Assembly (NCBI RefSeq): GCF_029338255.1
Contig: NZ_CP119787.1
Location: 1,364,001-1,428,000 of the forward strand
Direction of reading: 5' to 3'
From: Haloarcula halobia
GTDB taxonomy: Archaea; Halobacteriota; Halobacteria; Halobacteriales; Haloarculaceae
Length of the DNA: 64,000 nt
In this document: positions 11,470-64,000 of the stretch, in pieces
Position numbering within the stretch: position 1 is the first letter of the stretch
Layout of the letters: each line of letters starts with the position of its first letter
The notes under the pieces: model-generated
Told to the model about the DNA's origin: nothing
The model's input: the letters and a program-made list of their open reading frames with translations, nothing else
The model's database searches: none
Program-made: the position numbers and the translations under genes

Positions 11470-12624
11470 ATGACAGACGGCGACTTCGAGGGCTACGGTG
11501 GGCGACACGTCCCCGAGCCCCTCAAAGAGCCCCTCGAACAGCTGGCGACCGCGTACGACGACATCAAGGACACCGACGCGTTCCGCGAGGAACTGGACGC
11601 GCTCTTGGGGGACTTCGCCGGCCGGCCGACGCCGCTGTTCCACGCCGAGACCCTCAGCGAGCGCTGGGGAGCGGACATCTACCTGAAACGAGAGGACCTG
11701 CTCCACGGCGGTGCCCACAAGATCAACAACACGCTCGGCCAGGCGCTGCTGGCGAAGAAGGCCGGCCGACCCCGCCTCATCGCCGAGACCGGGGCCGGGC
11801 AACACGGCACCGCGACGGCGATGGCCGGTGCCCTGCTCGACCTGGACACGGAGATCTACATGGGCAAGAAGGACGTCGAGCGCCAGAAGATGAACGTCTT
11901 CAGGATGCGCCTGATGGGTGCGGAGGTCAACGAGGTCACGCGGGGCGACCAGGGGCTGGCCGACGCCGTCGACGCCGCCCTGGAGGACTTCGCGCAGAAC
12001 ATCGAGGACACCCACTACCTCGTCGGCAGCGTCGTCGGGCCGGACCCGTTCCCACGGATGGTCCGGGACTTCCAGAGCGTCATCGGCCGCGAGGCCCGCG
12101 AGCAGTTCCAGAACCGGACGGGCGAACTTCCGGACGCGGCCGTCGCCTGCGTCGGCGGCGGGAGCAACGCGATGGGCCTGTTCCACGCGTTCCGCGACGA
12201 CGACGTGGCCTTCTACGGTGCGGAGGGCGGCGGCGAGGGCGCTGAATCGACGCGCCACGCCGCGCCGCTGGCGGAAGGGCACGAGGGCGTCATCCACGGG
12301 ATGAAGACCCGGATCATCGACGACGACGTGGAGGTCCACTCCGTCTCCGCCGGCCTGGATTACCCCGGCGTCGGCCCCGAACACGCCATGTTCCGGGCGG
12401 TCGGCCGCGCGGAGTACCACGGCGTCACCGACGACGAGGCCCTGGAGGCGTTCCGCGAGCTCTCCGAGGCAGCGGGCATCATCCCCGCGCTGGAGACGAG
12501 TCACGGCCTGGCCTACGCGAAGCACCTGGCCGGCGAGAGCGACCACGACTCTATCCTCGTGAACCTCTCCGGCCGCGGCGACAAGGACATGGAACAGGCG
12601 GCCGAGATGTTCGATCTCTCCTGA
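11470..12624 (+). CDS. trpB: Tryptophan synthase beta chain, stand-alone paralogue
   Basis: 384 aa, full-length fold-type II PLP enzyme. PLP lysine in GGAHKINN, active-site Glu in AETGAGQHG, phosphate loop [11 protein letters not shown]-terminal SGRGDKDM. The segment [11 protein letters not shown] and [11 protein letters not shown] match classical TrpB more closely than the trp-operon copy at the right end of this window does. No trpA or other trp gene is adjacent: an exported-protein gene is divergent and a putative 27-aa gene converges. It may salvage indole with serine, back up the operon copy, or act on another substrate; sequence alone cannot separate these. Confidence 0.9.
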
Positions 12625-26526: not shown

Positions 26527-27522
26527 TCACCGGCGGAATGAGAGTCCGTCGACGTCGCCGTCGACGGCCCCGGTCAGGCCCGCACCCAGCGCGTAGGCCG
26601 TCCGCTGGGCGCCGCCCCGGAGCCGCTGGGTCAGGCCGCGCTGGGGCTCGAACTCGGCGACGGTGACCGGTTCGCCCAGTCTGTCCTCGAGGCGCTCCTC
26701 GACGTCCTCGCGGGTCCCGATGCGGTCGACCAGCCCCCGCTTGTGCGCGTCGGTGCCGAGGAAGACCTTCGCCTCCGTCGCCCGGATCTCCTCGGGGTCC
26801 ATCTCGCGGCCCTCGGCCACCGTCTCGACGAACTGGTCGTAGTAGTCGTCGACGATGCCCTGGAGGTACTCGCGTTCGTCCTCGCGTATCTCCTTCAGCG
26901 GGAGGCCGGCGTCCTTGTAGTCCCCGGCGGTGAACTGCTCGTAGGAGAGGCCCGCGCGGTCGGCCAGGTCCGTGGCGTTGACCCGCGAGCCGATGACGCC
27001 GATGGAGCCGACGATAGAGCCCTCGCGGGCCCACAGTTCGTCACAGCCGGCGGCGATGTCGTAGCCGCCGCTCGCACAGACGTCGGTGGCGTAGGCGACG
27101 GTCGGCCCCTCGAAACGCTCCGCGGCCAGGCGGATGTCCTCGCTCGGGACGATTTCCCCGCCCGGCGTGTTGAGCTTCAGCAGGAGCGCATCCGCGCCCT
27201 TGTCGGCGTCGGCCCGCTCTATCTGCTCGACGACGTCGTCGGCGCCGGCGCCGACCGGCGGGCTGACGACGCCGCCACCGCCATCGCGGGTAATCGGGCC
27301 CTCGACGGCGACCTCGGCGACGTTGTGTGAGGGGGCGACGGAGTCGGCGGCGTTGCCCCCGATCTTGACCGCGGCGACGACGACGCCGACGACCAGCAGG
27401 ACGCCGAGCAGCTCGGCGAGGTCGCCCGGGAAGGCGACGAACAGCACCCACCCGACCACCGCGGCGACGAGCGCCACGGCGCCGACGACCACCAGCCGGG
27501 TGACCGTCCGACTCGCGCTCAC
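26527..27522 (-). CDS. sppA: Signal peptide peptidase SppA (S49 serine protease)
   Basis: 331 aa. Two N-terminal membrane segments (about 8-30 and 36-54), then the S49 domain with catalytic Ser151 in DVCASGGYD and Lys203 in GDYKDAG; the 52-residue spacing matches the Ser/Lys dyad of short SppA enzymes. It cleaves remnant signal peptides in the membrane. The ATG overlaps the upstream PAC2 gene stop by 4 nt (ATGA), so the pair is translationally coupled. Confidence 0.92.
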   Translation of the reverse strand: MSASRTVTRLVVVGAVALVAAVVGWVLFVAFPGDLAELLGVLLVVGVVVAAVKIGGNAADSVAPSHNVAEVAVEGPITRDGGGGVVSPPVGAGADDVVEQIERADADKGADALLLKLNTPGGEIVPSEDIRLAAERFEGPTVAYATDVCASGGYDIAAGCDELWAREGSIVGSIGVIGSRVNATDLADRAGLSYEQFTAGDYKDAGLPLKEIREDEREYLQGIVDDYYDQFVETVAEGREMDPEEIRATEAKVFLGTDAHKRGLVDRIGTREDVEERLEDRLGEPVTVAEFEPQRGLTQRLRGGAQRTAYALGAGLTGAVDGDVDGLSFRR

Positions 27523-28259
27523 TGGTACATCCCCAGCGGCCGCGCGCTCGTGCTCTCCTCTGTGTCCTGGAGCTGCCGGGCGAGGCGGGCCTTGGCCTCG
27601 CGGATCTGCTCGGCCTGGTCGACGAGGACGTCGGTGTCGACCTCGATGCCGGCGATGGGGCCGATGCCCTCCGAGAGCAACCGGCGGGCGGCCCGCGGGT
27701 CCGGGAACCGCCGGTCGGCCTCGACGACCAGGCCGACGCTGGTCAGGTCGATGCTGTTGGCCTCGTGGATGAGGGCGCCGGTCGGCCCGGTGATGGCGCC
27801 GTCCTCGGTGGGGACGTCGACGCCCGCCGCTTCGAGTAGCGACGCCCCCTCGCCCGTGGAGACGCCGTAGACCACGGGTTCCCGCTCCTCGTCCGGTTCG
27901 GTCGCCATCCCGCTGAGGAAGACCGGCGTCACGTCCATCTCCGCGAACCAGCCCACGATGCAGCCCGCGAACTCCGTCGCCGCGGACGGCGAGATCGGCG
28001 CGTCGCTCTGGAGGACCAGCAGGTCCTGGTCGGCGTCGGCGTAGAACCGGACCGGCGAGCGGATCTGGGGGTCGCCATCGGCGTAGACACCGATCTCCGG
28101 GAGCCCCTCGCAGTGGGCCGATGCGTAGTGGTCCATGTCGTACACCTCGACCAGGTGGTCGGCGGCGATCTTCCCGACGAGGCCGACGCCGGGGAGTCCC
28201 TCGACGAGTGTCGGTTCGTCCAGCGTGACGTCCTCACGGTGGACTTCAACGTGTGCCAT
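27519..28259 (-). CDS. PAC2-family proteasome assembly chaperone homologue
   Basis: 246 aa. Family features: LVEGLPGVGLVGKIAADHLV at residues 19-38, then FYADADQDLLVLQSDAPI and GPTGALIHEA. The C-terminal 40 residues form a probable coiled coil (EQIREAKARLARQLQD). Archaeal PAC2 proteins are proposed to aid proteasome assembly. ATG 28259 is preferred to an in-frame start 27 bp upstream, since it begins with the conserved MAHVEVH. It overlaps sppA by 4 nt, and the adjoining membrane protease fits a proteolysis theme. Confidence 0.85.
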   Translation of the reverse strand: MAHVEVHREDVTLDEPTLVEGLPGVGLVGKIAADHLVEVYDMDHYASAHCEGLPEIGVYADGDPQIRSPVRFYADADQDLLVLQSDAPISPSAATEFAGCIVGWFAEMDVTPVFLSGMATEPDEEREPVVYGVSTGEGASLLEAAGVDVPTEDGAITGPTGALIHEANSIDLTSVGLVVEADRRFPDPRAARRLLSEGIGPIAGIEVDTDVLVDQAEQIREAKARLARQLQDTEESTSARPLGMYQ

Positions 28260-28460
28260 GCCCCCGTATTCGACTGCCGAAGGCATGAAAGGCGGGGTGG
28301 AACGGTCACCGCGCCGGGGTCGGGCTCTTGCCGTCCCGGGAACGCGCGACTCCAGACCACGACCGACCTACGACACGGCGAGGAACGGCACGCGAGGGGC
28401 TGTACCGGCCAGTTCCTGCCACCAGATATATGCCTTCTCAGCCCAAGCGAACGGCAGAAC

Positions 28461-30230
28461 ATGGAGCGACCGACGCACGTAGCGAGCTCGGGGCCGGTCC
28501 TGGTCGTCCAGTCCGACGGCCGCATCGACCACGTGAACACGGCGGCCCGACTGCTGCTGGACGCGCCCTCCACCGACGCCCTCGTCGGGGAGTCGGTCCT
28601 CGAATTCGTCGCGACCACGGACCGGGACCCGCTGCTCGACCAGTTCGACCGGTTGGTGGGAGGTGACGCGTCGGCTATCGGGCTGACCCTCACGCTGACG
28701 GGCCCGACTCGCGGCGCTCGAGACTTCGTCGTCCTGAACTCGGCCGTCGAGTGGGACGGGGCCGAGCGCGTCGAGATGACCGCCTTCGATGCGAACGAGG
28801 AGCTCCCGACCGGGTTCCAAGAGCGGACGATGGACGCCACGCCGGTTGGCATCACGATTGCGGACGCCGACCGGCCGGACGAACCCATCATCTACGCCAA
28901 CGACGGGTTCTGCGAGCTGACCGGCTACCCCCGCGAGGAGATACTCGGCCGGAACTGTCGGTTCCTGCAGGGGGAGGAGACGAACGAGGACACCGTCGCG
29001 GAGGTCAGGGACGCCGTCGACGCCGAGGCGCCGATCACGACCGAACTCCGGAACTACCGTCGCGACGGGTCGATGTTCTGGAACCGGCTCACGATAACGC
29101 CGGTCGAGGCACCGGACGGGACCGTCACACACTTCCTCGGCTTCCAGGAGGACGTGACCGACCGCCGGGCCTTCGAACAGGCGAAACGGATCTTCGAGAT
29201 GCAGGCCGAGGCGCTGGACAAGTCCATCTTCATCACGGACACCGAGGGCACCATCGAGTACGTGAACCCGGCGTTCGAGCGAACGACCGGTTACTCGGCC
29301 GAGGACGCCGTCGGCGAGAACCCCCGGATTCTGAACTCGGGCCAGCAGGACGAGACGTTCTATCGCGAGCTGTGGGAGACCATCACCGTCGGTGAGGTCT
29401 GGGAGACCGAAATAACGAACCGGCGGAAGTCGGGCGAGCTGTACCGGACGACACAGAAGATCGTCCCGGTGACGGACGCCGACGGAGCGGTAACCAACTT
29501 CGTCGCCATCGAGGAAGACGTCACGGACGCCCAGTTCATCGAGCAGGTGCTGCACGTGATGGACCGCGTGCTGCGACACAACGTCCGGAACTCGGTCACC
29601 GCGATTCGCGGATTCACGGACCTTCTGGAGGGCGAACTCGACGACCAGGAGCACCGCGCCGCCGTCGAGGCCATCCAGGAGCACACCGAAAAGCTGGGCA
29701 AGCTGAGCGACGAGACCCGGACCATCCGGGAACTGTTCCGACGACGGCACGCCGAGCACTCGCTCTCGGTGGCCGCGGTCGAGGGATTCGTCGACACGCG
29801 ACGCGAGATGCACCCCGAGGCCGTCATCGAACTCTCGATGGACGCCGGCGACGACACGGTGGTCCAGAACGGCAGCCTGTTGCAACTCGCCATCGACGAG
29901 GCGCTCGAAAACGCCGTCGTCCACCACGACGGCGAGACGCCACGCGTCGCGGTGACCGTCGAGGCGGCAGACGACGGCGAGGCGCTCCGCGTCGAGATAG
30001 CCGACGACGGCCCCGGGATCCCCGACGAGGAGTGGGACGTCATCATGGCCGGCGAGGAGACGCCGCTCCAGCACGGGACCGGCATCGGCCTCTGGCTCAT
30101 GTACTGGACGGTCACGGCGCTGGGCGGCACGATGCGACGGGCCGAGAACGATCCACGTGGCACCGTCATCACGTACCACGTGCCGCTCGTCGCCGGCGAC
30201 CACGTCGACGAGTGGAAATCGAGCGAGTGA
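28461..30230 (+). CDS. LOV/PAS sensor histidine kinase
   Basis: 589 aa, no membrane segment. An N-terminal PAS-like domain (about 8-110) is followed by a LOV domain (about 120-245) with flavin-adduct motif GRNCRFLQG (Cys166), NYRRDGSMFWN and FLGFQEDVT, the residues that bind FMN in blue-light receptors. A third PAS (about 248-365) follows, then the phosphoacceptor His373 in VLRHNVRNSVTAI and an ATPase domain with EALENAVVHH (N box), DDGPGIPD and GTGIGLWL. Predicted soluble blue-light or redox sensor kinase. No response regulator is adjacent. GATATATG lies about 27-34 bp upstream. Confidence 0.9.
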   Translation: MERPTHVASSGPVLVVQSDGRIDHVNTAARLLLDAPSTDALVGESVLEFVATTDRDPLLDQFDRLVGGDASAIGLTLTLTGPTRGARDFVVLNSAVEWDGAERVEMTAFDANEELPTGFQERTMDATPVGITIADADRPDEPIIYANDGFCELTGYPREEILGRNCRFLQGEETNEDTVAEVRDAVDAEAPITTELRNYRRDGSMFWNRLTITPVEAPDGTVTHFLGFQEDVTDRRAFEQAKRIFEMQAEALDKSIFITDTEGTIEYVNPAFERTTGYSAEDAVGENPRILNSGQQDETFYRELWETITVGEVWETEITNRRKSGELYRTTQKIVPVTDADGAVTNFVAIEEDVTDAQFIEQVLHVMDRVLRHNVRNSVTAIRGFTDLLEGELDDQEHRAAVEAIQEHTEKLGKLSDETRTIRELFRRRHAEHSLSVAAVEGFVDTRREMHPEAVIELSMDAGDDTVVQNGSLLQLAIDEALENAVVHHDGETPRVAVTVEAADDGEALRVEIADDGPGIPDEEWDVIMAGEETPLQHGTGIGLWLMYWTVTALGGTMRRAENDPRGTVITYHVPLVAGDHVDEWKSSE

Positions 30231-30351: not shown

Positions 30352-31260
30352 ATGGAACCACCCGACCGGTATCGCCCCATCGTCGACGACTTCGAGGCGT
30401 TCCGCGAGGCCTGCGAACGCCCACTCCCGTCGGTGGTCAGAGTCAACACGATCAAGGCCAGCGTCGCGGACGTCCGACAGGCACTCGCCGAGGCCGACAT
30501 CACGGCCGACCCGGTCGACTGGCACGACCGGGTGCTCGTCCTGCCCGAGGACCCGCCGGGGAACAACTGGCCGTACTTCCACGGCTGGATCCACGGCCAG
30601 GAGGAGGTCTCTGCCGTCCCCGCGACGGTGCTGGACCCCCAACCGGGCGAGCGCGTGTGGGACGCCTGTGCCGCACCGGGGAGCAAGACGACCCAGCTCG
30701 CGGCGCTGATGGACGACCGCGGCGAGGTCGTCGCCAGCGACAACAACCTCGGGCGGATCTCGGCGCTCCGGTCGAACACCGAACGGCTCGGCGCGACCAG
30801 CGTGGCCGTCACCCACGAGGACGCGCGCAACCACTCGCTTTCCCCCTTCGGCGGGGCGACCTACGACCGCGCGCTGGTCGACGTGCCCTGCTCCTGTGAG
30901 GGGACCATCCGCAAGAACCCCGACGCCTTCGACGACTGGTCGCTCTCGCACGTCCAGGGCGTCGCCGGCGTCCAGAAGGGCATCCTCGCGCGGGCGGTGC
31001 AGGCCACCGACCCCGGCGGCACGGTCGTCTACTCGACGTGTACGTTCGCGCCGGAGGAAAACGAGGCCGTCCTCGACCACGTGCTCGGCGAAGAGGACTG
31101 TGAACTCGTCGACTACGACCTCCCGCTGACACACCGGCCGGGCGTCACCGAGTGGCAGGACGAGGCGTTCGACCCGAGCGTCACCCGGGCGAAACGCATC
31201 TACCCCCACCACAACGACACGGGCGGGTTCTTCTGTGCGAAACTGGAGGTGACGGGATGA
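30352..31260 (+). CDS. RNA cytosine-C5 methyltransferase (NSUN/RsmB-like)
   Basis: 302 aa. SAM-binding motif VWDACAAPGSKTTQLAALM, then the two family cysteines Cys180 (VDVPCSCEGT) and Cys230 (YSTCTFAPEEN). It methylates cytosines in tRNA or rRNA. It lacks a PUA domain of its own; the next gene, starting within its stop codon (ATGA), encodes a PUA-like protein, suggesting a two-chain enzyme. The specific RNA target is not evident. Confidence 0.9.
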   Translation: MEPPDRYRPIVDDFEAFREACERPLPSVVRVNTIKASVADVRQALAEADITADPVDWHDRVLVLPEDPPGNNWPYFHGWIHGQEEVSAVPATVLDPQPGERVWDACAAPGSKTTQLAALMDDRGEVVASDNNLGRISALRSNTERLGATSVAVTHEDARNHSLSPFGGATYDRALVDVPCSCEGTIRKNPDAFDDWSLSHVQGVAGVQKGILARAVQATDPGGTVVYSTCTFAPEENEAVLDHVLGEEDCELVDYDLPLTHRPGVTEWQDEAFDPSVTRAKRIYPHHNDTGGFFCAKLEVTG

Positions 31261-43023: not shown

Positions 43024-43950
43024 TTACCGGATGGACTTCAGCGCGGCCGACCCGATAGACAACGCCGCTTTCCGCATCGGTTCCGGCATGCGCGAGCCGA
43101 CGACCCCTCGCATCGTGTGTATCGGCCCGCCCTGTTTGTCGAGGAATCGGTATCTGAACGACCCCCGGGCGTCGGTGATCGTTTGCATCTCCGCATCGGA
43201 GAGCTCGAAGTCGAACACGTCGAGGTTCTCTCGGATGTACCGGTCGGTCGAGCTCTTGGGAATCGCGATTACTCCGTCCTGCTGGATCAGCCAACGTATC
43301 GTGACCTGTGCTGCCGTCTTCCCGTGGCGTTCGCCGATTTCCGCGAACGTCTCGTCACTGACGACGCGCCCTTCGGCAAGCGGGCTATAGGCGGTGACGA
43401 GAATGTCGTGTTCCTGGCAGTAGTTGACTGTGTCGCCGTGGATGTCCGTGAAGTACGGGTGGTACTCGATCTGGTTGGTGAGTATCGGGGTCTCTGCGAC
43501 GTCTCTCGCACGCTCCAGCAGCTCGACCGAGAAATTACTGACGCCGATGTGCCGGACTTTCCCCTCGGCGACCAGCTCGTCGAGCGCTCGAAATACCCCT
43601 TCCATGTCCCCGTCACGCTGCCACCAGTGGACCAGGAGAAGGTCCACGTAGTCGGTCCCCAGGCGATCGAGAGACCCCTCTGCTTCCGCCAGAAACCTGT
43701 CGTACGTTAGCATCTCACGATAGCCTTTCACCTTCGTCGTGAGGAAGACGTCTTCGCGATCGACCTCCGACTCGGCTATCGCGTCACCGATGACGGACTC
43801 GTTGTCGTACGCCATCGCGGTGTCGACGTGGCGATAACCAGTTTCGAGCGCGGTCCGGACGGCCTGCAGACACTCTTTTCCTTCCATCTGGTACGTCCCG
43901 AACCCGATCTTCGGGACGGATGTTCTGTTCACGCCTACGATTTCGTCCAT
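43024..43950 (-). CDS. Aldo/keto reductase (first copy)
   Basis: 308 aa. AKR fold with catalytic tetrad: Asp in HVDTAMAYDNE, Tyr in the same motif, Lys in TTKVKGY and His in LLLVHWW; NADP site near AIPKSSTDR. It reduces aldehydes or ketones with NADPH. Related to the second AKR gene beyond halorhodopsin, with the same IxxNQIEYHP pattern, but longer by a C-terminal extension. ATG 43950 is used; its upstream DNA is noticeably A/T-rich. Confidence 0.88.
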   Translation of the reverse strand: MDEIVGVNRTSVPKIGFGTYQMEGKECLQAVRTALETGYRHVDTAMAYDNESVIGDAIAESEVDREDVFLTTKVKGYREMLTYDRFLAEAEGSLDRLGTDYVDLLLVHWWQRDGDMEGVFRALDELVAEGKVRHIGVSNFSVELLERARDVAETPILTNQIEYHPYFTDIHGDTVNYCQEHDILVTAYSPLAEGRVVSDETFAEIGERHGKTAAQVTIRWLIQQDGVIAIPKSSTDRYIRENLDVFDFELSDAEMQTITDARGSFRYRFLDKQGGPIHTMRGVVGSRMPEPMRKAALSIGSAALKSIR

Positions 43951-44299
43951 GTCGGTTGCAGGATGAACCCACTGTGATAATAAGTAGTAACTTATTACCG
44001 AGTTACGCATATTTTACGCAGTTTACGACCGAATGGTAGTGGGGGCGAGGAATACATCGGTAGGATGCCTATCCTCACAGGAACACGAATTAGGCTGGAC
44101 GCCTGCTCAACAGGTCTCCATGCCGACTGTGTGCTTCCGCATTCAGCACGCGTTACCGCTCAGACGCTGCGCGGTTCCACGGTTGCAGGTACTTCCTACC
44201 GTGGACGGCGACGCGGGCTCATACTGCCGGCTGTACCATTTAGAAAATACTCGGCATCCCGGGGTGCCAAGAATCTTTCCGAACGTACAGCCGGCAGTA
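43951..44299. other. 349-bp spacer with A/T-rich promoter and inverted repeats
   Basis: No convincing gene. The first 60 bp (AATAATAAGTAGTAACTTATT) are A/T-rich and serve the aldo/keto reductase promoter. The remainder, 44030-44220, has codon patterns unlike its neighbours and several short stops in every frame; it may be a remnant of a mobile element. The last 80 bp form the inverted-repeat structure described separately. Confidence 0.5.
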
Positions 44300-44300
44300 T
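44221..44300. repeat. 16-bp inverted repeat enclosing an inner palindrome
   Basis: ATACTGCCGGCTGTAC (44221-44236) and its exact complement GTACAGCCGGCAGTAT (44285-44300) enclose 48 nt; inside lies GGCATCCCGGGGTGCC (44253-44268), which pairs with itself apart from one wobble. The right arm reaches the last base of the halorhodopsin stop codon. It can fold as a long hairpin in RNA or DNA: terminator, or a small mobile palindromic element. Confidence 0.7.
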
Positions 44301-45124
44301 CAGTCGTCGCTCGGCGCGGCGCCCGCGGTCCGACTCCCCGACCCGGACTCCGCGACGACCCCCTCGTTGGCGGCGACCCAGCGCAGCAGCAGGAACGCGA
44401 AGACGTACTTCGCGAGGATGTCCAGCCCGGAGTAGCCCCACGAGGTGACGCCGACGCTCAGGAGGGCAAAGCCCTCGGAACCAAGCGCCCAGAGGATGGG
44501 GTAGCCCAGCCACAGCACGACGGTCAGCGTGCGGAGCGTCTGGAATATCTCGCTCGTCCCGGCGGCGGCCGCCGCGCCGCTCCACTCCACGAGCAGGATG
44601 TAGAGGACGGCCACGAAGAAGGCACAGCTGATGAGGTAGAAGACCCACCGGAAGAGGTACGAGGACGTGACGAGCGCGGCCGCCAGGCCGGTCACGCACA
44701 TCCCGACGTCCATCGTGATGGCGGTGAATATCGAGGTCCGGTCGGCGTCGGCCAGCAGGCCCAGCGCCAGCAGGATCATCGGCGTCGAGAGCGTCCACGT
44801 GAGGTAGCGGCCCCACGGTGAGAGGACCTGCTCGCCGGCCAGCGCGTGGCCGGCTGGCATCTCGAGGAACCCGACTGTCAGCCCAGAGGCGAGCCCGGCG
44901 TAACTGGAGATCGAGACGAGCGGGACCAGGAGCGTCGCGACCCAGATGAGGTTCGCCCGCGGGGACTGTACCCCCCTGCCCATGTAGACGAACAGGAGTA
45001 TCGCGAGTCCCGCGAGCGCGATGTTCACCCAGAGCGACGACTGCAACAGGAAGTCCGACTGTATCTCCCGGAAGGCGTCTGACTGTGTGGCCTGCAGGAC
45101 CGGTCCGGTGACGGGTGTCGACAT
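44300..45124 (-). CDS. hop: Halorhodopsin (light-driven chloride pump)
   Basis: 274 aa, seven helices. In helix C the motif is RYLTWTLSTPMILLA: Thr109, Ser113 and Ala120 occupy the places of bacteriorhodopsin Asp85, Thr89 and Asp96, the TSA pattern of halorhodopsins. Retinal Schiff-base Lys239 lies in GLDILAKYVFAF; the C terminus ends in SDD as in known halorhodopsins. It pumps chloride inward using light. ATG 45124 has TATA-like GATATAAT 25-32 bp upstream. Flanked by two aldo/keto reductases and followed upstream by a Bat-like regulator gene. Confidence 0.94.
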   Translation of the reverse strand: MSTPVTGPVLQATQSDAFREIQSDFLLQSSLWVNIALAGLAILLFVYMGRGVQSPRANLIWVATLLVPLVSISSYAGLASGLTVGFLEMPAGHALAGEQVLSPWGRYLTWTLSTPMILLALGLLADADRTSIFTAITMDVGMCVTGLAAALVTSSYLFRWVFYLISCAFFVAVLYILLVEWSGAAAAAGTSEIFQTLRTLTVVLWLGYPILWALGSEGFALLSVGVTSWGYSGLDILAKYVFAFLLLRWVAANEGVVAESGSGSRTAGAAPSDD

Positions 45125-45148
45125 ACGAATCCAACGTGGGAGCGGGGC

Positions 45149-45178
45149 ATTATATCTTCGCCCCCCAACTGGGTTGGG
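45149..45178 (-). promoter_or_regulatory. Halorhodopsin promoter with UAS-like palindrome
   Basis: GATATAAT (45149-45156) is the TATA box. Eight bases further upstream CCCAAC-TGG-GTTGGG (45164-45178) is an inverted repeat; on the gene strand it reads ACCCAACCCAGTTGGG, similar to the Bat-controlled UAS of the bop regulon (about ACCnnACTAGTTnGG) but with one extra central base. Confidence 0.5.
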
Positions 45179-45244
45179 TCGAGGGGTCGCTGGCGAACGC
45201 GGCGGTGGGCACCGGACGGGGGTTCGTTCGCCACCCTCCGCGGT

Positions 45245-46009
45245 CTACTCCGGGAACAGCTCTTCCTCGCGGTCGATGGCCTCGATGCGCGCGACGTCGT
45301 CGTCGTCGAGTTCGAGGTCGGTGGCCGCCAGGTTCGCCGCGAGGTGCGCCCGCGAGGAGGCCTTCGCGATGGCGACCACGTTGTCGTACGAGGTGACCCA
45401 GGCGAGACTCACCGCGGCCGGCGTGGTGTCGTGGCGGTCGGCGATGGCCTCGAGCGTCGGATCCTCGAAGACCTGTCCGCCCGCGAGCGGCGAGTACGCG
45501 ACCAGCGGGTAGTCGTTTGCCTGCGCGTCCTCGAGCAGCGACCGTCGCCAGAAGAAGGGGTGAAACTCCACCTGGTGGGCCGCGATGGGGCTCTCGAGGT
45601 GGTCGCGAGCGACGGCGAGGTCCGCCGGGTCGAAGTTCGAGAGACCGACGTGGTGGGTCAGGCCGTCCTCGCGGACCGCGTCGACGGCGGGCAGCGTCGT
45701 GGCCGGGTCGTAGTCGCCCCGTGGCCGGTGGACGTACAGCAGGTCGACGGTCGACAGGCCCAGTCGGTCGAGGCTCGCCTCGGTGCCCGGGCGCACGTCC
45801 GGCTCGGCCAGGCTGTCGATCCAGAGTTTCGTGGCCACGGTCAGGGCTTCACGGTCGACGTCCGCGGCGGCGATGCCCTCGCCGACGACTCGCTCGTTCC
45901 GGTATATCTGTGCGGTGTCGACGTGTCGGTAGCCGACGTCGAGGGCGGTGGAGACGACCGCGGACTCCTCGATGCCCATGGTGCCGAGTCCGACCGGTGG
46001 CAGGTGCAT
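45245..46009 (-). CDS. Aldo/keto reductase (second copy)
   Basis: 254 aa. Catalytic residues: Asp and Tyr in HVDTAQIYRNE, Lys in VATKLWI, His in LLYVHRPRG; NADP-binding AIAKASSRAH near the end. NADPH-dependent reductase of unknown substrate. It sits between hop (120 bp downstream) and the Bat-like regulator gene (51 bp upstream), all in one direction. Shorter than the first AKR copy by about 50 residues, mainly at the C terminus. Confidence 0.88.
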   Translation of the reverse strand: MHLPPVGLGTMGIEESAVVSTALDVGYRHVDTAQIYRNERVVGEGIAAADVDREALTVATKLWIDSLAEPDVRPGTEASLDRLGLSTVDLLYVHRPRGDYDPATTLPAVDAVREDGLTHHVGLSNFDPADLAVARDHLESPIAAHQVEFHPFFWRRSLLEDAQANDYPLVAYSPLAGGQVFEDPTLEAIADRHDTTPAAVSLAWVTSYDNVVAIAKASSRAHLAANLAATDLELDDDDVARIEAIDREEELFPE

Positions 46010-46060
46010 GGGGCGATACTCGCGGTGGCGGCTGAAGGGGGTATCGGTCCCGACGGTGCC

Positions 46061-49000
46061 TCAGATATCCAGCAGCGACTCGAGGAGGTTCAGCTTCGCC
46101 CGGCGGAGGTGCTGGTGGAGCGTCGGCGAAGAGATGTCCAGGGCGTCGGCCAGCTCCTCCGCGGTCGTATCGCGGGGCCAGGCGTAGTAGCCCGCGAGGT
46201 AGGCGGCGCGCAGAACCTCGACCTGCCGGTCGGTCAGCTGGTCCAGGACGGTCTCGCCATCGCCGCCGGGGTCCCTGTCGCGCGGTCGCTCTTGCTTCGA
46301 GGCGAGTCGCAGGTCGTCGATATCGGCCGACAGCGTGCGGTGTATCGTCCGCGGGTCGGCGTCCACCGGCGCCTCCGCGGTGATGGTGAGTCGGTCCCGG
46401 TCGGCGACGATGTCGGTGGGTCGCGCGCCCACGTCCAGCAGCGCCGCCTGGTAGGCCCGGGTCACCGTCAACTCGAGGCGGCCACCGTCGCCGTCGCCAC
46501 GGACCACTCGCCCGCCGGTGACGGGGTCGGTCTCCAGACAGGTCTCGAGGACCGCCTCGGGGTCGGCGCCCTCGACGGTCACGTACTCGAGGTACTCGTC
46601 GCCGATGTCGATACACCCCGTCGCCTCCAGGCGACAGCCGTGCCGGCGGGCGACGGCCACGAGCCAGATGTCCTCGTTCTCGGTCTCGAACTCGAGTTCG
46701 ACCACCCGGTCGTCCAGCAGTAACTGCCTGTTCTGGACGGCCGTGAACGCGAACCCGACCATCTCGCCGAGGACGGTGAACGCCTCGATGGCCCGGTCGC
46801 TGAACGCCTCGGGCCGGTTGGCGTAGACGAGCAACGCGGCGTGGACGACCCCCTCGTGGACGAGGGGGACGACCGCGGCCGACCGGAAGCCACGCTCCAG
46901 CGCCTCCTCGCGCCAGGGGGTCATCCGCTCGTCGTCCGCGAGGTCGTGGATGACCTGGACCTCGCCGGTCTCGATCGCCGTCAGCCCGGGGTCGTCCGTC
47001 CGGTCGGCCGCCCGCGAGCGCTCGGCGACGATGCCGTGGTACTCTTCGCCGCCGCCCGCGCCCGTCTTCCAGACGAGGTGGTTCTTGTCGACGGCCCGCT
47101 CGCCGATCCAGGCCAGTTCGTAGTACTCGGATTCGACCAGGCGATCACAGACCAGCGCCTCGATCTCCCCGACGGTCACGGCGGTGCTCAGCGCCCGGAT
47201 GACGTCCTGGATGAGGACGTGAATCTGCGTGAGCGTCTCGAGTTCGTCGCGCTGGGCCTCGAGTTCTTGCTGGCGTTCCTTGCGTTCGGTGATGTCCTGG
47301 TGGATGCCCACCATCCGCTGTGGCGTGCCGTCCGCGTCGCGTTCGAAGACCCGCCCCAGGTCACGAATCCACCGGCACTCGCCCGACTTCGTCCGCAACC
47401 GGTGGTCGCACTCGTAGATGTCGGTCTCGCCGTCGAAGTGACGTCGAATCTCGTCCCAGGCCCGCTCCAGGTCGTCCGGGTGGACCAGTTTCTCCCACGT
47501 CTCCAGTCGCCCCTCGAGTTCCGCGTGGTCGTACCCCAGCATCCCAGTCCAGCGTTCGTCGAACTCGACGCCGCCCGTCTCGACGTTCCAGTCCCAGACG
47601 GCGAGGTCCGCACCCTCCAGCGCGAGTTCGAGGCGCTCGGTCGTCTCCCTGAGGCGGCGTTCGCGTTCACGCAGTTCGGTGACGTTCTGGGCGACGGCCA
47701 TCCCCGCGATGATTTCACCGGCCGCGTTCCGAATCGGGACCACCTTCACGGAGTAATCCTGGCCGGCGAAGCTGTCCTCGAATGTCCGCTGCTCGCCCGC
47801 CAGGGCGTCGCTGTACGCGTCCTCGAGCAGGTCTGCGTTCTCCGGCGGGAACACGTCGCTGGGGGTCTTGTCGATGAAGTCCGCCGGCTCCATCCCCAGC
47901 TGTTCTAGGTCCTGGCCCCCGACCTCGAGGTATCGCATCTCCCCGTCGAACAGGAACACGCCGCCGCTGGGGAAGTTCCCGACGAGGTTGTCGAACAGCT
48001 CCTTGTACCGCTCCAGTTCCCGTTCGCGGTCCAGTCGGTCGGTGACGTCGCGGGCGACACCCATCAGGCCGAGATAGCCGCTCTCGGTCCCTTCCAGCAG
48101 CGTGTAGTGGACCGATATCTCCCGCTCGGTCCCGTCCGCCCGGACGAACGTGAGGTCGACGGTGGCCTCCTCGCAGTCCGGGTCGGTGACGAGTCGCTGC
48201 ACAGTCTCCTGCCCTTTGGCGAGCTGGCCCTGGGCGAGCACTTCGGAGGCGTGTGTCCCGAGCAGCTCCGATTGTTCGTATCCCAGCATCGACGCCATCG
48301 CCTCGTTACAGAAGTCGACGTTCCCGTTGGCGTCGAGCGTGTACAGGCCGTCCTGGGCGAACTCGACGAGCAGGTCCAGCAGTCGCTCTCGAGCCTCCCG
48401 GCGGACCTGTTCGGTCACGTCCCGGAGCTGGAGGAGTCTGAGCGACCCGGCGGCCGCCGGCAGGTCGGACTCGTCCCAGAGGAGGTGGCCGTGGTCCGGG
48501 ACGCGCAGGATCACCGGGTCGTCCGGCCCGTCCCGGAGTCGCTCGAGCGCCGCGCGTCCCTCCCGTGTCTCCGTGAGGACTCGCTCGGCCCAGTCGTCGA
48601 CGTTGGTCACGGGTGCGCTCGCATCCGGGAGCCGCGATTCCAGCGCGGCGCTCGACCAGACGACAGTGCCGTCGTCCTCGACGAGCACCGCCGTCTCGTC
48701 CTCGTGGGCGCGGCGCTCGATGTCGTCTACCGTCGCCGCCAGTGCGTATTCCCGCCGGTCCGTGTGGGGACTGGTCACGCCGACGATCTTCTCCGCCAGG
48801 AACTCGTCGTGGCCCGCCTCGCTGTCTTTCTCGACGATGGTCGTCGCGGCCGCAAGCACCTCGTCGTCGAACGCCGCGGGGTCCCGGTCCGTGTAGAAGA
48901 TGACCGGACAGTCCAGGCCTGCGAGCAACCGCTCGACGGGCCCGTCGAGCCCCTCCGGGTCGAGTACCACGCAGTCGATATCACCGGTAGCGACGTCGAG

Positions 49001-49195
49001 GGCGGCCTCGACGCTGGCGACGCTGGCCATCGATATCGTGTCACGGCGGTCCGTTATTGCCTGTCGGGTCGCCTCCCGGAGTGTCGCGTCAGCGTCGACG
49101 TAGAGCACGTCGATGGTCGCTGCCACAGCGGTGGCCTCGTCGGGGTCGACCAGTCGGCCGTCGTCCGGTCGCCGTTCAGGCAGCGTCTCACGCAT
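46061..49195 (-). CDS. Bacterio-opsin-activator-like multi-PAS/GAF regulator with HTH_10
   Basis: 1044 aa. In order: receiver-like domain (about 20-140; CVVLDPEGLDG at the phosphoacceptor position), a degenerate PAS (about 160-255), three PAS domains (about 265-385, 390-505, 510-640), a GAF domain (about 650-800), a Bat-type domain (about 830-960) and a C-terminal HTH_10 (LTDRQVEVLRAAYLAGYYAWPRD). Bat proteins activate opsin and carotenoid genes under low oxygen or light. Position upstream of halorhodopsin suggests a role in its control. ATG 49195 is chosen; GTG 49216 is also open. Confidence 0.88.
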   Translation of the reverse strand: MRETLPERRPDDGRLVDPDEATAVAATIDVLYVDADATLREATRQAITDRRDTISMASVASVEAALDVATGDIDCVVLDPEGLDGPVERLLAGLDCPVIFYTDRDPAAFDDEVLAAATTIVEKDSEAGHDEFLAEKIVGVTSPHTDRREYALAATVDDIERRAHEDETAVLVEDDGTVVWSSAALESRLPDASAPVTNVDDWAERVLTETREGRAALERLRDGPDDPVILRVPDHGHLLWDESDLPAAAGSLRLLQLRDVTEQVRREARERLLDLLVEFAQDGLYTLDANGNVDFCNEAMASMLGYEQSELLGTHASEVLAQGQLAKGQETVQRLVTDPDCEEATVDLTFVRADGTEREISVHYTLLEGTESGYLGLMGVARDVTDRLDRERELERYKELFDNLVGNFPSGGVFLFDGEMRYLEVGGQDLEQLGMEPADFIDKTPSDVFPPENADLLEDAYSDALAGEQRTFEDSFAGQDYSVKVVPIRNAAGEIIAGMAVAQNVTELRERERRLRETTERLELALEGADLAVWDWNVETGGVEFDERWTGMLGYDHAELEGRLETWEKLVHPDDLERAWDEIRRHFDGETDIYECDHRLRTKSGECRWIRDLGRVFERDADGTPQRMVGIHQDITERKERQQELEAQRDELETLTQIHVLIQDVIRALSTAVTVGEIEALVCDRLVESEYYELAWIGERAVDKNHLVWKTGAGGGEEYHGIVAERSRAADRTDDPGLTAIETGEVQVIHDLADDERMTPWREEALERGFRSAAVVPLVHEGVVHAALLVYANRPEAFSDRAIEAFTVLGEMVGFAFTAVQNRQLLLDDRVVELEFETENEDIWLVAVARRHGCRLEATGCIDIGDEYLEYVTVEGADPEAVLETCLETDPVTGGRVVRGDGDGGRLELTVTRAYQAALLDVGARPTDIVADRDRLTITAEAPVDADPRTIHRTLSADIDDLRLASKQERPRDRDPGGDGETVLDQLTDRQVEVLRAAYLAGYYAWPRDTTAEELADALDISSPTLHQHLRRAKLNLLESLLDI

Positions 49196-62336: not shown

Positions 62337-63128
62337 ATGGACGCTAGTGAGGAAGAGATGGCACCCGAAGTCGCCTCGATACTGGCGGCGGCCCGCGAGC
62401 GCGGCGGCGGTGGCGAGCGCGTCTCGGTCGACGACGCGTGGTCGTTGCCCGACGCCGTCGCCCGCGCCGAGGGAGACGGCCGCGTGCCGCTCATCGCGGA
62501 GGTGAAACCGACGAGTCCGACCGCCGACGGCGAGCGGACCGACGACCCGGTCGCACTCGCCCAGCAGATGGTCGCCGGCGGGGCCGCCGCCCTGTCGGTG
62601 TTGACTGAACCCGAGCACTTCGGCGGGTCCGCCGAGACGCTCCGGCGGGTGCGCGAGGCCGTCGACGTGCCGGTCCTCCGGAAGGACTTCGTCCTCTACG
62701 AGGACCAGCTCGACGTCGTGGCGGCAGACGTGATCCTGCTCATCGTCCGGTTCCTCGAGGAGGAGGGCACGGACGACCTCGCGGACCTGCTCGCGGCCGC
62801 TCGCGACCGCGGCTTCCAGGTCCTCGTCGAGGCTCACACCGAATCGGAGGTCGAGACGGCCCTGGCGGCCGGTGCCGAGATCATCGGCGTCAACAACCGC
62901 GACCTCTCGATGCTCGAGGTCGACCTCTCGACGTTCGAGCGCGTCTCGGCGTCGGTCCCCGAGAGCGTCACCCTCATTGCGGAAAGCGGCATACACACGC
63001 CCGACGACGTCACGCGGATGCGCCGTGCCGGCGCGGACGCGCTGCTCGTCGGGTCGGCCATCATGGACCACGGCGGCGATTCGGACGTGACCGAGAACAC
63101 CCGACGACTCACGGAGACACAGACATGA
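62337..63128 (+). CDS. trpC: Indole-3-glycerol-phosphate synthase
   Basis: 263 aa. TIM barrel with [16 protein letters not shown] (usual IAEVKxxSPS with Thr/Ala variation), [30 protein letters not shown] and [27 protein letters not shown]. It closes the indole ring in tryptophan synthesis. Its TGA overlaps the trpB ATG (ATGA 63125-63128). Start ATG 62337 fits the promoter. trpA is expected just outside the window. Confidence 0.94.
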
Positions 63129-64000
63129 GCACGGACGACGCACACGACCCCAAGTTCGGCGAGTACGGCGGACAGTACGTCCCGGAGGCACTGATGCCGG
63201 CAATCGAGGAGCTGGCCGACGCCTACCGGCGGTACGTACTGGAAAACGAGGACGGCTTCATGGACGAGTTCCGCGAGCGCCTGGCCGACTTCGGCGGCCG
63301 GCCGACCCCGCTGCAGTACGCAGACCAGCTCTCGGAGCGCTACGACACCGACGTCTACCTGAAACGGGAGGACCTGCTCCACGGCGGCGCGCACAAGCTC
63401 AACAACGCGCTCGGGCAGGTACTCCTGGCGAAGTACATGGGCAAAGAGCGCATCATCGCCGAGACGGGGGCCGGCCAGCACGGCACCGCGACGGCGATGG
63501 CCGCCGCGCACCTGGACATGCCCTGCGAGATATACATGGGCGAGACGGACATCGCGCGCCAGCGCCCCAACGTCTTCCGGATGCGCATCAACGGTGCCGA
63601 GGTCAACCCGGTGACGGTGGGCCGCGGGACGCTCAAGGAGGCCATCTCCGAGACGATGCGCGACTGGGCGACAACCGTCGAGACGACTCACTACGTCATC
63701 GGGAGCGTCGTCGGCCCGCACCCCTTCCCGAAGATGGTCAGGGACTTCCAGTCGGTCATCTCCGAGGAGGCCCGCGAGCAGTGCATCGAGAAGACCGGCG
63801 ACCTGCCCGACGCCGTGCTCGCCTGTGCCGGTGGCGGGTCGAACACGATGGGTACGTTCGCCGAGTTCGTGGACGACTCCGAAGTTGACCTCTATGCCGT
63901 CGAGGCCGGGGGTTCGTCGCTCCAGGTCGACGAGGAGAAGGGGGTCGCGCCCAACTCCGCGTCCCTGTCGACGGGCGGCGAGGGCGTCCTGCACGGTGCG
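63125..64000 (+). CDS. trpB: Tryptophan synthase beta chain (trp operon copy), partial
   Basis: At least 292 codons; the 3' end lies beyond the window. N terminus [23 protein letters not shown] lysine in [37 protein letters not shown]. Compared with the stand-alone copy at 11.5 kb, the region after the Gly loop differs ([19 protein letters not shown]), so the copies are not recent duplicates. It condenses indole and serine, paired with TrpA. Confidence 0.93.

Follow-up and report, generated by a model that had tools for sequence, protein, structure and literature searches.

A LOV histidine kinase of Haloarcula halobia with a candidate blue-light input and a possible FAD-type redox domain

Which signals does the histidine kinase encoded at 28461..30230 read, and to which partner does it pass them? 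The gene lies in a stretch of 64,000 nucleotides of the Haloarcula halobia genome (NZ_CP119787.1, 1,364,001 to 1,428,000), here called the window, whose positions are used below. An initial annotation had described its product as a soluble LOV histidine kinase with a likely blue-light input. We favor, at a probability of about 0.75, a cytosolic, dimeric blue-light sensor histidine kinase whose response regulator is encoded elsewhere and whose gene was probably acquired horizontally. The features of the gene are as follows.

28425..28432, + strand: TATA-like block, from a two-sequence alignment, about 34 bp 5' of the ATG and kept in strain SYNS111
28461..30230, + strand: LOV histidine kinase gene, 589 aa (PAS1-LOV-PAS3-HisKA-HATPase)
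28494..28790, + strand: N-terminal PAS1, residues 12-110 (PAS_4, 2e-07)
28824..29168, + strand: LOV domain, residues 122-236, candidate flavin/blue-light input
28947..28970, + strand: GRNCRFLQ motif with the adduct cysteine C166
29205..29528, + strand: PAS3, residues 249-356, MmoS/NifL-like, candidate FAD redox sensor
29373-29375 and 29418-29420, + strand: codons of W305 and N320, within PAS3
29538..29735, + strand: dimerisation/phospho-acceptor region, residues 360-425 (HisKA, 5.2e-07; H373 at 29577-29579)
29862..30194, + strand: catalytic ATPase domain, residues 468-578 (HATPase_c, 1.5e-17; N484, D515-x-G517, GTGIGL)

The kinase and its LOV domain

Pfam searches with the whole protein and with its segments identified a weak N-terminal PAS domain, a LOV-type PAS domain, a third PAS domain, HisKA and HATPase_c, and no membrane helix was detected in the kinase (maximum 19-residue hydropathy mean of 0.96), in agreement with the soluble LOV kinase first annotated. 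Acidic residues make up 20% of the protein, which has 7 Lys and 44 Arg. Such an acidic, lysine-poor and arginine-rich make-up is expected of a haloarchaeal cytosolic protein. The reading frame stays open upstream to 28113, but the start at 28461 fits because the orthologue of Halomicroarcula (Haloarcula) sp. SYNS111 (L031), 82% identical over the full length, shows GTG at that codon, and the TATA-like block upstream is kept. Judging from its position, this block suggests that the gene has its own putative promoter and a nearly leaderless transcript. A two-sequence AlphaFold model had a mean pLDDT of 39.5 and was discarded.

Conservation was assessed in an alignment of 35 rows (the window protein, SYNS111 and 33 relatives), which comprises 34 of 56 match places plus one from another search. 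N165, C166, N198 and N208 are present in 35/35 rows and F168 and Q229 in 34/35, and since rows were chosen for their resemblance to the window kinase, which favors an intact LOV domain, and a LOV-less relative (L141_10) was dropped before counting, this invariance reflects constraint inside the group and not the frequency of LOV loss among related kinases. Many relatives match only at about residues 230-576, that is, PAS3 and the kinase without LOV. The kinase residues are equally well kept, with H373, D515 and G517 in every row, N484 in 34/35 and the GTGIGL motif present. The key flavin-binding residues claimed for the second sensory domain were all recovered, GRNCRFLQG occupying residues 163-171 with C166 correctly numbered, followed by N198, N208 and Q229. 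A match in Enterovibrio (L032) was rejected as a relative of the whole kinase, since it is best over PAS3 and belongs to a long enzyme-type protein.

Solved LOV proteins were matched at 1e-34 to 1e-39, far beyond chance, the best matches including a LOV histidine kinase chain (9vf7, 9.9e-35), and these E-values, together with a reversed-pattern control that gave 0 hits in the window genome (G000), rule out a chance origin of the motif. The LOV segment alone matches the NCBIfam model YtvA_fam at 4e-47, under the whole-protein cut-off of that family. Because the whole kinase misses both curated cut-offs (212.4 against 250 bits for YtvA_fam and 193.2 against 450 bits for BluLightHisKinLov), we file it under neither name.

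The annotated blue-light input fits the invariant LOV residues and, by analogy, the photocycle of another haloarchaeal LOV domain, and would probably operate as follows. On illumination, a bound flavin, probably FMN, would form an adduct with C166; the resulting change in LOV would travel through a helix to PAS3 and on to the helix bearing H373; the light signal would presumably shift the kinase/phosphatase balance in one direction or the other; and phosphate would pass to a response regulator whose gene lies at another place in the genome. Consistent with this scheme, Q229 and D260 are separated by 31 positions in 35/35 rows and Q229 and H373 by 144 in 33/35, as would be expected for rigid helical coupling, and helical linkers set the light response of LOV kinases according to the sections of PMC6798134 considered here. 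The distance from PAS1 to LOV varies among rows, and PAS1 itself is weakly conserved (mean majority 0.44, every column below 34/35), so that the conserved unit is LOV-PAS3-kinase. The LOV domain might instead serve mainly as a flavin redox sensor, as the same sections describe certain LOV receptors that may be chemically reduced physiologically and act as redox sensors; we regard this as very unlikely, given that the adduct cysteine, unneeded for redox sensing, is kept in all 35 rows and that a haloarchaeal LOV domain does photocycle, as reported in the part of PMC12202551 considered.

The third PAS domain

Under the blue-light reading a relay of the signal through PAS3 is very likely, and PAS3 may itself bind FAD. 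When compared alone with solved structures, its best match was MmoS (3ewk, 3e-31), followed by NifL (2gj3, 3.9e-14), both FAD redox sensors, and LOV chains as well as Aer (8dik, 2.3e-11) were matched at about 1e-11 to 1e-12. As described in the portion of PMC10468136 considered, a Trp in helix F-alpha is the primary determinant of FAD binding and the second is Asn or His. W305 aligns with the FAD Trp of NifL and MmoS and is found in 34/35 rows, the remaining row having a gap, and N320 is found in all 35; PAS3 thus carries both the Trp and the Asn by which FAD-type PAS domains of the NifL, MmoS and Aer clusters are recognized in sequence. As a control, 34 PAS domains from further proteins encoded at the fetched haloarchaeal loci were compared by means of a model made from LOV and PAS3 segments; 10 have the Trp and six have both residues, some of the six being kin.

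FAD binding by PAS3 is therefore plausible on the basis of sequence, and the conservation of W305 and N320 raises the possibility that the kinase is a coincidence detector, in which PAS3 would bind FAD as in MmoS and NifL and blue light would be integrated with redox state or oxygen. The reading extends the blue-light explanation rather than replacing it, and we hold it tentatively, as possible but short of even odds. In its favor are the two top structural matches, with Aer also among the matches, and the residue counts given above. Against these must be set that LOV structures match PAS3 about as well as Aer does, that the Asn column is common to LOV domains, leaving only the Trp to discriminate, and that the best NCBIfam match of PAS3 is DibA (100.5 bits) and not NifL (75.2 bits), both under cut-off. 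The FAD assignment is uncertain also because PMC10468136, in the part considered, gives the Trp a frequency of only 53% within one FAD cluster. The whole kinase is not a NifL, as it reaches 157.6 bits against the cut-off of 242.45 (TIGR02938). A literature search for kinases combining LOV with an FAD-type PAS domain returned no archaeal case at the level of search records.

Response partner, neighboring genes and locus history

That no response regulator is adjacent, as had been annotated, was borne out: PF00072 has 24 matches in the genome and 0 within the window range, which makes an unlinked partner possible. The co-occurrence of response regulators or HTH_10 proteins with such kinases had been proposed as a check. 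Using receiver and HTH_10 models built in house from five and two seeds, and gene calls from our own script, we found a receiver protein within five genes of the kinase in 9/35 rows and an HTH_10 protein in 2/35 but, apart from the KaiC-linked type described below, no arrangement that recurs. Neither type of protein lies within five genes of the window kinase or of its SYNS111 orthologue, and no recurring neighbor gene of the window-type kinase was found among the 35 rows. Given the 0 receivers in the window and the lack of a recurring neighbor, the response partner is probably unlinked. A HalOD1 output gene that follows the relative in Halorubrum lacusprofundi was rejected as the partner, a similar stretch being present only at that locus itself (L148) and weakly at L141 among 34 loci.

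The initial annotation had also pointed to a halorhodopsin and a Bat-like protein in this organism, and both are encoded in the window on the minus strand, the halorhodopsin at 44300-45124, about 14 kb from the kinase, and the Bat-type protein (PAS/GAF/BAT/HTH_10) at 46061-49195. No LOV cysteine motif was seen in those PAS domains of the Bat-type protein that were inspected, and the nearness of the two genes is no evidence of linkage to the LOV kinase. Within 43024-49195 the halorhodopsin gene lies between two reductase-like genes, which we take to be aldo/keto reductase-like, followed by the Bat-type gene. The genome has four rhodopsin genes, and the window contains two TrpB-like tryptophan synthase genes (11470-12624 and 63125-64000, labeled by eye).

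Other LOV proteins are encoded in the same genome. A 1320-aa Bat-type protein (G000 C1 606168-610130; L070:1169-5131) combines a LOV domain bearing GRNCRFLQ with GAF, BAT and HTH_10 and is a candidate light-controlled transcription factor. Unlike the window kinase, a LOV kinase of 868 aa (G000 C1 897791-901117; L069), which also has a PAS domain with the Trp and the Asn, is encoded next to a REC-HalX response regulator. The motif GHNCRILQ marks a fifth LOV domain with the cysteine, part of a REC-PAS-LOV kinase (G000 C1 1932265-1934028; L067).

At G000 C1 127501-131207 (L068:2-3708) a KaiC-like ATPase gene lies directly 5' of a LOV kinase gene, at a distance of 8 bp, and the same pairing is seen at L154, L157, L161, L162, L173 and L174. 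It was found at 4/34 family loci and at 6/30 LOV-motif loci within 1.5 kb, and it occurs on named plasmids of Haloarcula halophila and H. pelagica together with CheW, a chemotaxis receptor and further kinases. With about nine KaiC-type genes in the window genome, we estimate chance pairing at roughly 1% per locus, and the pairing suggests light input to KaiC hubs. No paper on KaiC with LOV in haloarchaea was found in a literature search. A broader picture, of a two-flavin kinase (an FMN LOV and an FAD PAS at fixed spacing) with an output set by blue light and redox state or oxygen together, whose core has spread horizontally and is in some cases coupled to KaiC-like ATPases, appears to us doubtful.

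Two flanking genes mark the site of the kinase gene.

27519..28259, - strand: PAC2-family gene (PF09754, 2.2e-44), divergent, marks the empty site, outside the system
30352..31260, + strand: methyltransferase-like gene, presumably RNA cytosine methyltransferase-like, flanks the kinase and marks the empty site; in 59/60 relatives

Thirty genomes of the genus besides the window genome and SYNS111 were sampled and gave 28 loci, two genomes giving none. The site is empty in 22/28, where the two flanking genes lie no more than about 450 bp apart without a LOV kinase in the interval; of the remainder, three have other genes in between, two have no PAC2 match in 6.5 kb and one lies at a contig end. 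Among the same-genus loci examined, the kinase is at this junction only in the window genome and SYNS111. The junction is variable in the genus, a 423-aa transposase-like or a ferritin-like ORF being present at L165, L163 and L164 (labels by eye). In a tree of the 35 rows the window protein and its SYNS111 orthologue fall together with G366 and G314 of family f4 (support 97/94), and placing all 13 f1 rows in a single clade is rejected (p-AU 5e-40), f1 and f4 being Haloarculaceae and Haloferacaceae, judging by the match to named plasmids. The kinase gene was thus probably acquired horizontally, and by its looks recently, by the lineage of these two genomes. Old paralogues followed by losses could also accommodate the rejection of one f1 clade, but horizontal gain is the simplest reading.

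A recently arrived gene could be a functionally idle passenger, as its patchy presence in the genus and the frequent plasmid location of its relatives (E <= 1e-60 in 20 plasmid records) might indicate. We judge this very unlikely, because the frame is intact, the catalytic residues are complete and the SYNS111 orthologue, 82% identical, retains the junction and the start context.

Comparison with known systems

The flavin photoreceptors of haloarchaea have been little studied next to their rhodopsins. A catalogue of archaeal LOV kinases reportedly was published in 2014 by Losi and Gaertner. The window kinase belongs to this known kind: the portion of PMC4844311 (2014) considered lists 167 archaeal LOV proteins without function, among them Halobacteria LOV kinases with PAS domains as additional units, and does not discuss an FAD-type PAS partner. 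Closer still is the LOV kinase of Halonotius, also haloarchaeal, whose LOV domain, ALovD-1, according to the part of PMC12202551 (2025) considered, binds FMN and undergoes a slow photocycle at salt concentrations up to 3 M. In both kinases the histidine kinase part follows three PAS domains, with LOV in second place, and the LOV domain carries a GxNCRFLQ-type motif with the adduct cysteine, but two aromatic positions occupied by the usual Phe in the window kinase (F150 and F168, by motif position) are Tyr in ALovD-1, and the full Halonotius protein has 726 aa against 589. Neither KaiC nor NifL is named in the same paper, where FAD and redox appear once each, in references only. A literature search for the activity of a complete archaeal LOV kinase found none. 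As a short and soluble protein whose layout is near that of a domain known to photocycle, the window kinase lends itself to measurements of light control in an archaeal kinase.

The top solved match of the whole protein, YF1 (PDB 4gcz, 1.3e-39, two stretches), is an engineered kinase, considered here together with YtvA, that likewise joins LOV to a histidine kinase, but the window kinase has an extra PAS domain between the two and misses the YtvA_fam cut-off. MmoS and NifL are the nearest solved relatives of PAS3, with the Trp and Asn aligned, and to our knowledge neither carries a LOV domain. As described in the sections of PMC6798134 considered, YHF also integrates light with a second signal, oxygen, through tandem PAS sensors and helical linkers, but it is engineered and uses a heme-PAS domain instead of an FAD one; if PAS3 does bind FAD, the window kinase would be a case from nature in which a single kinase senses both light and redox state.
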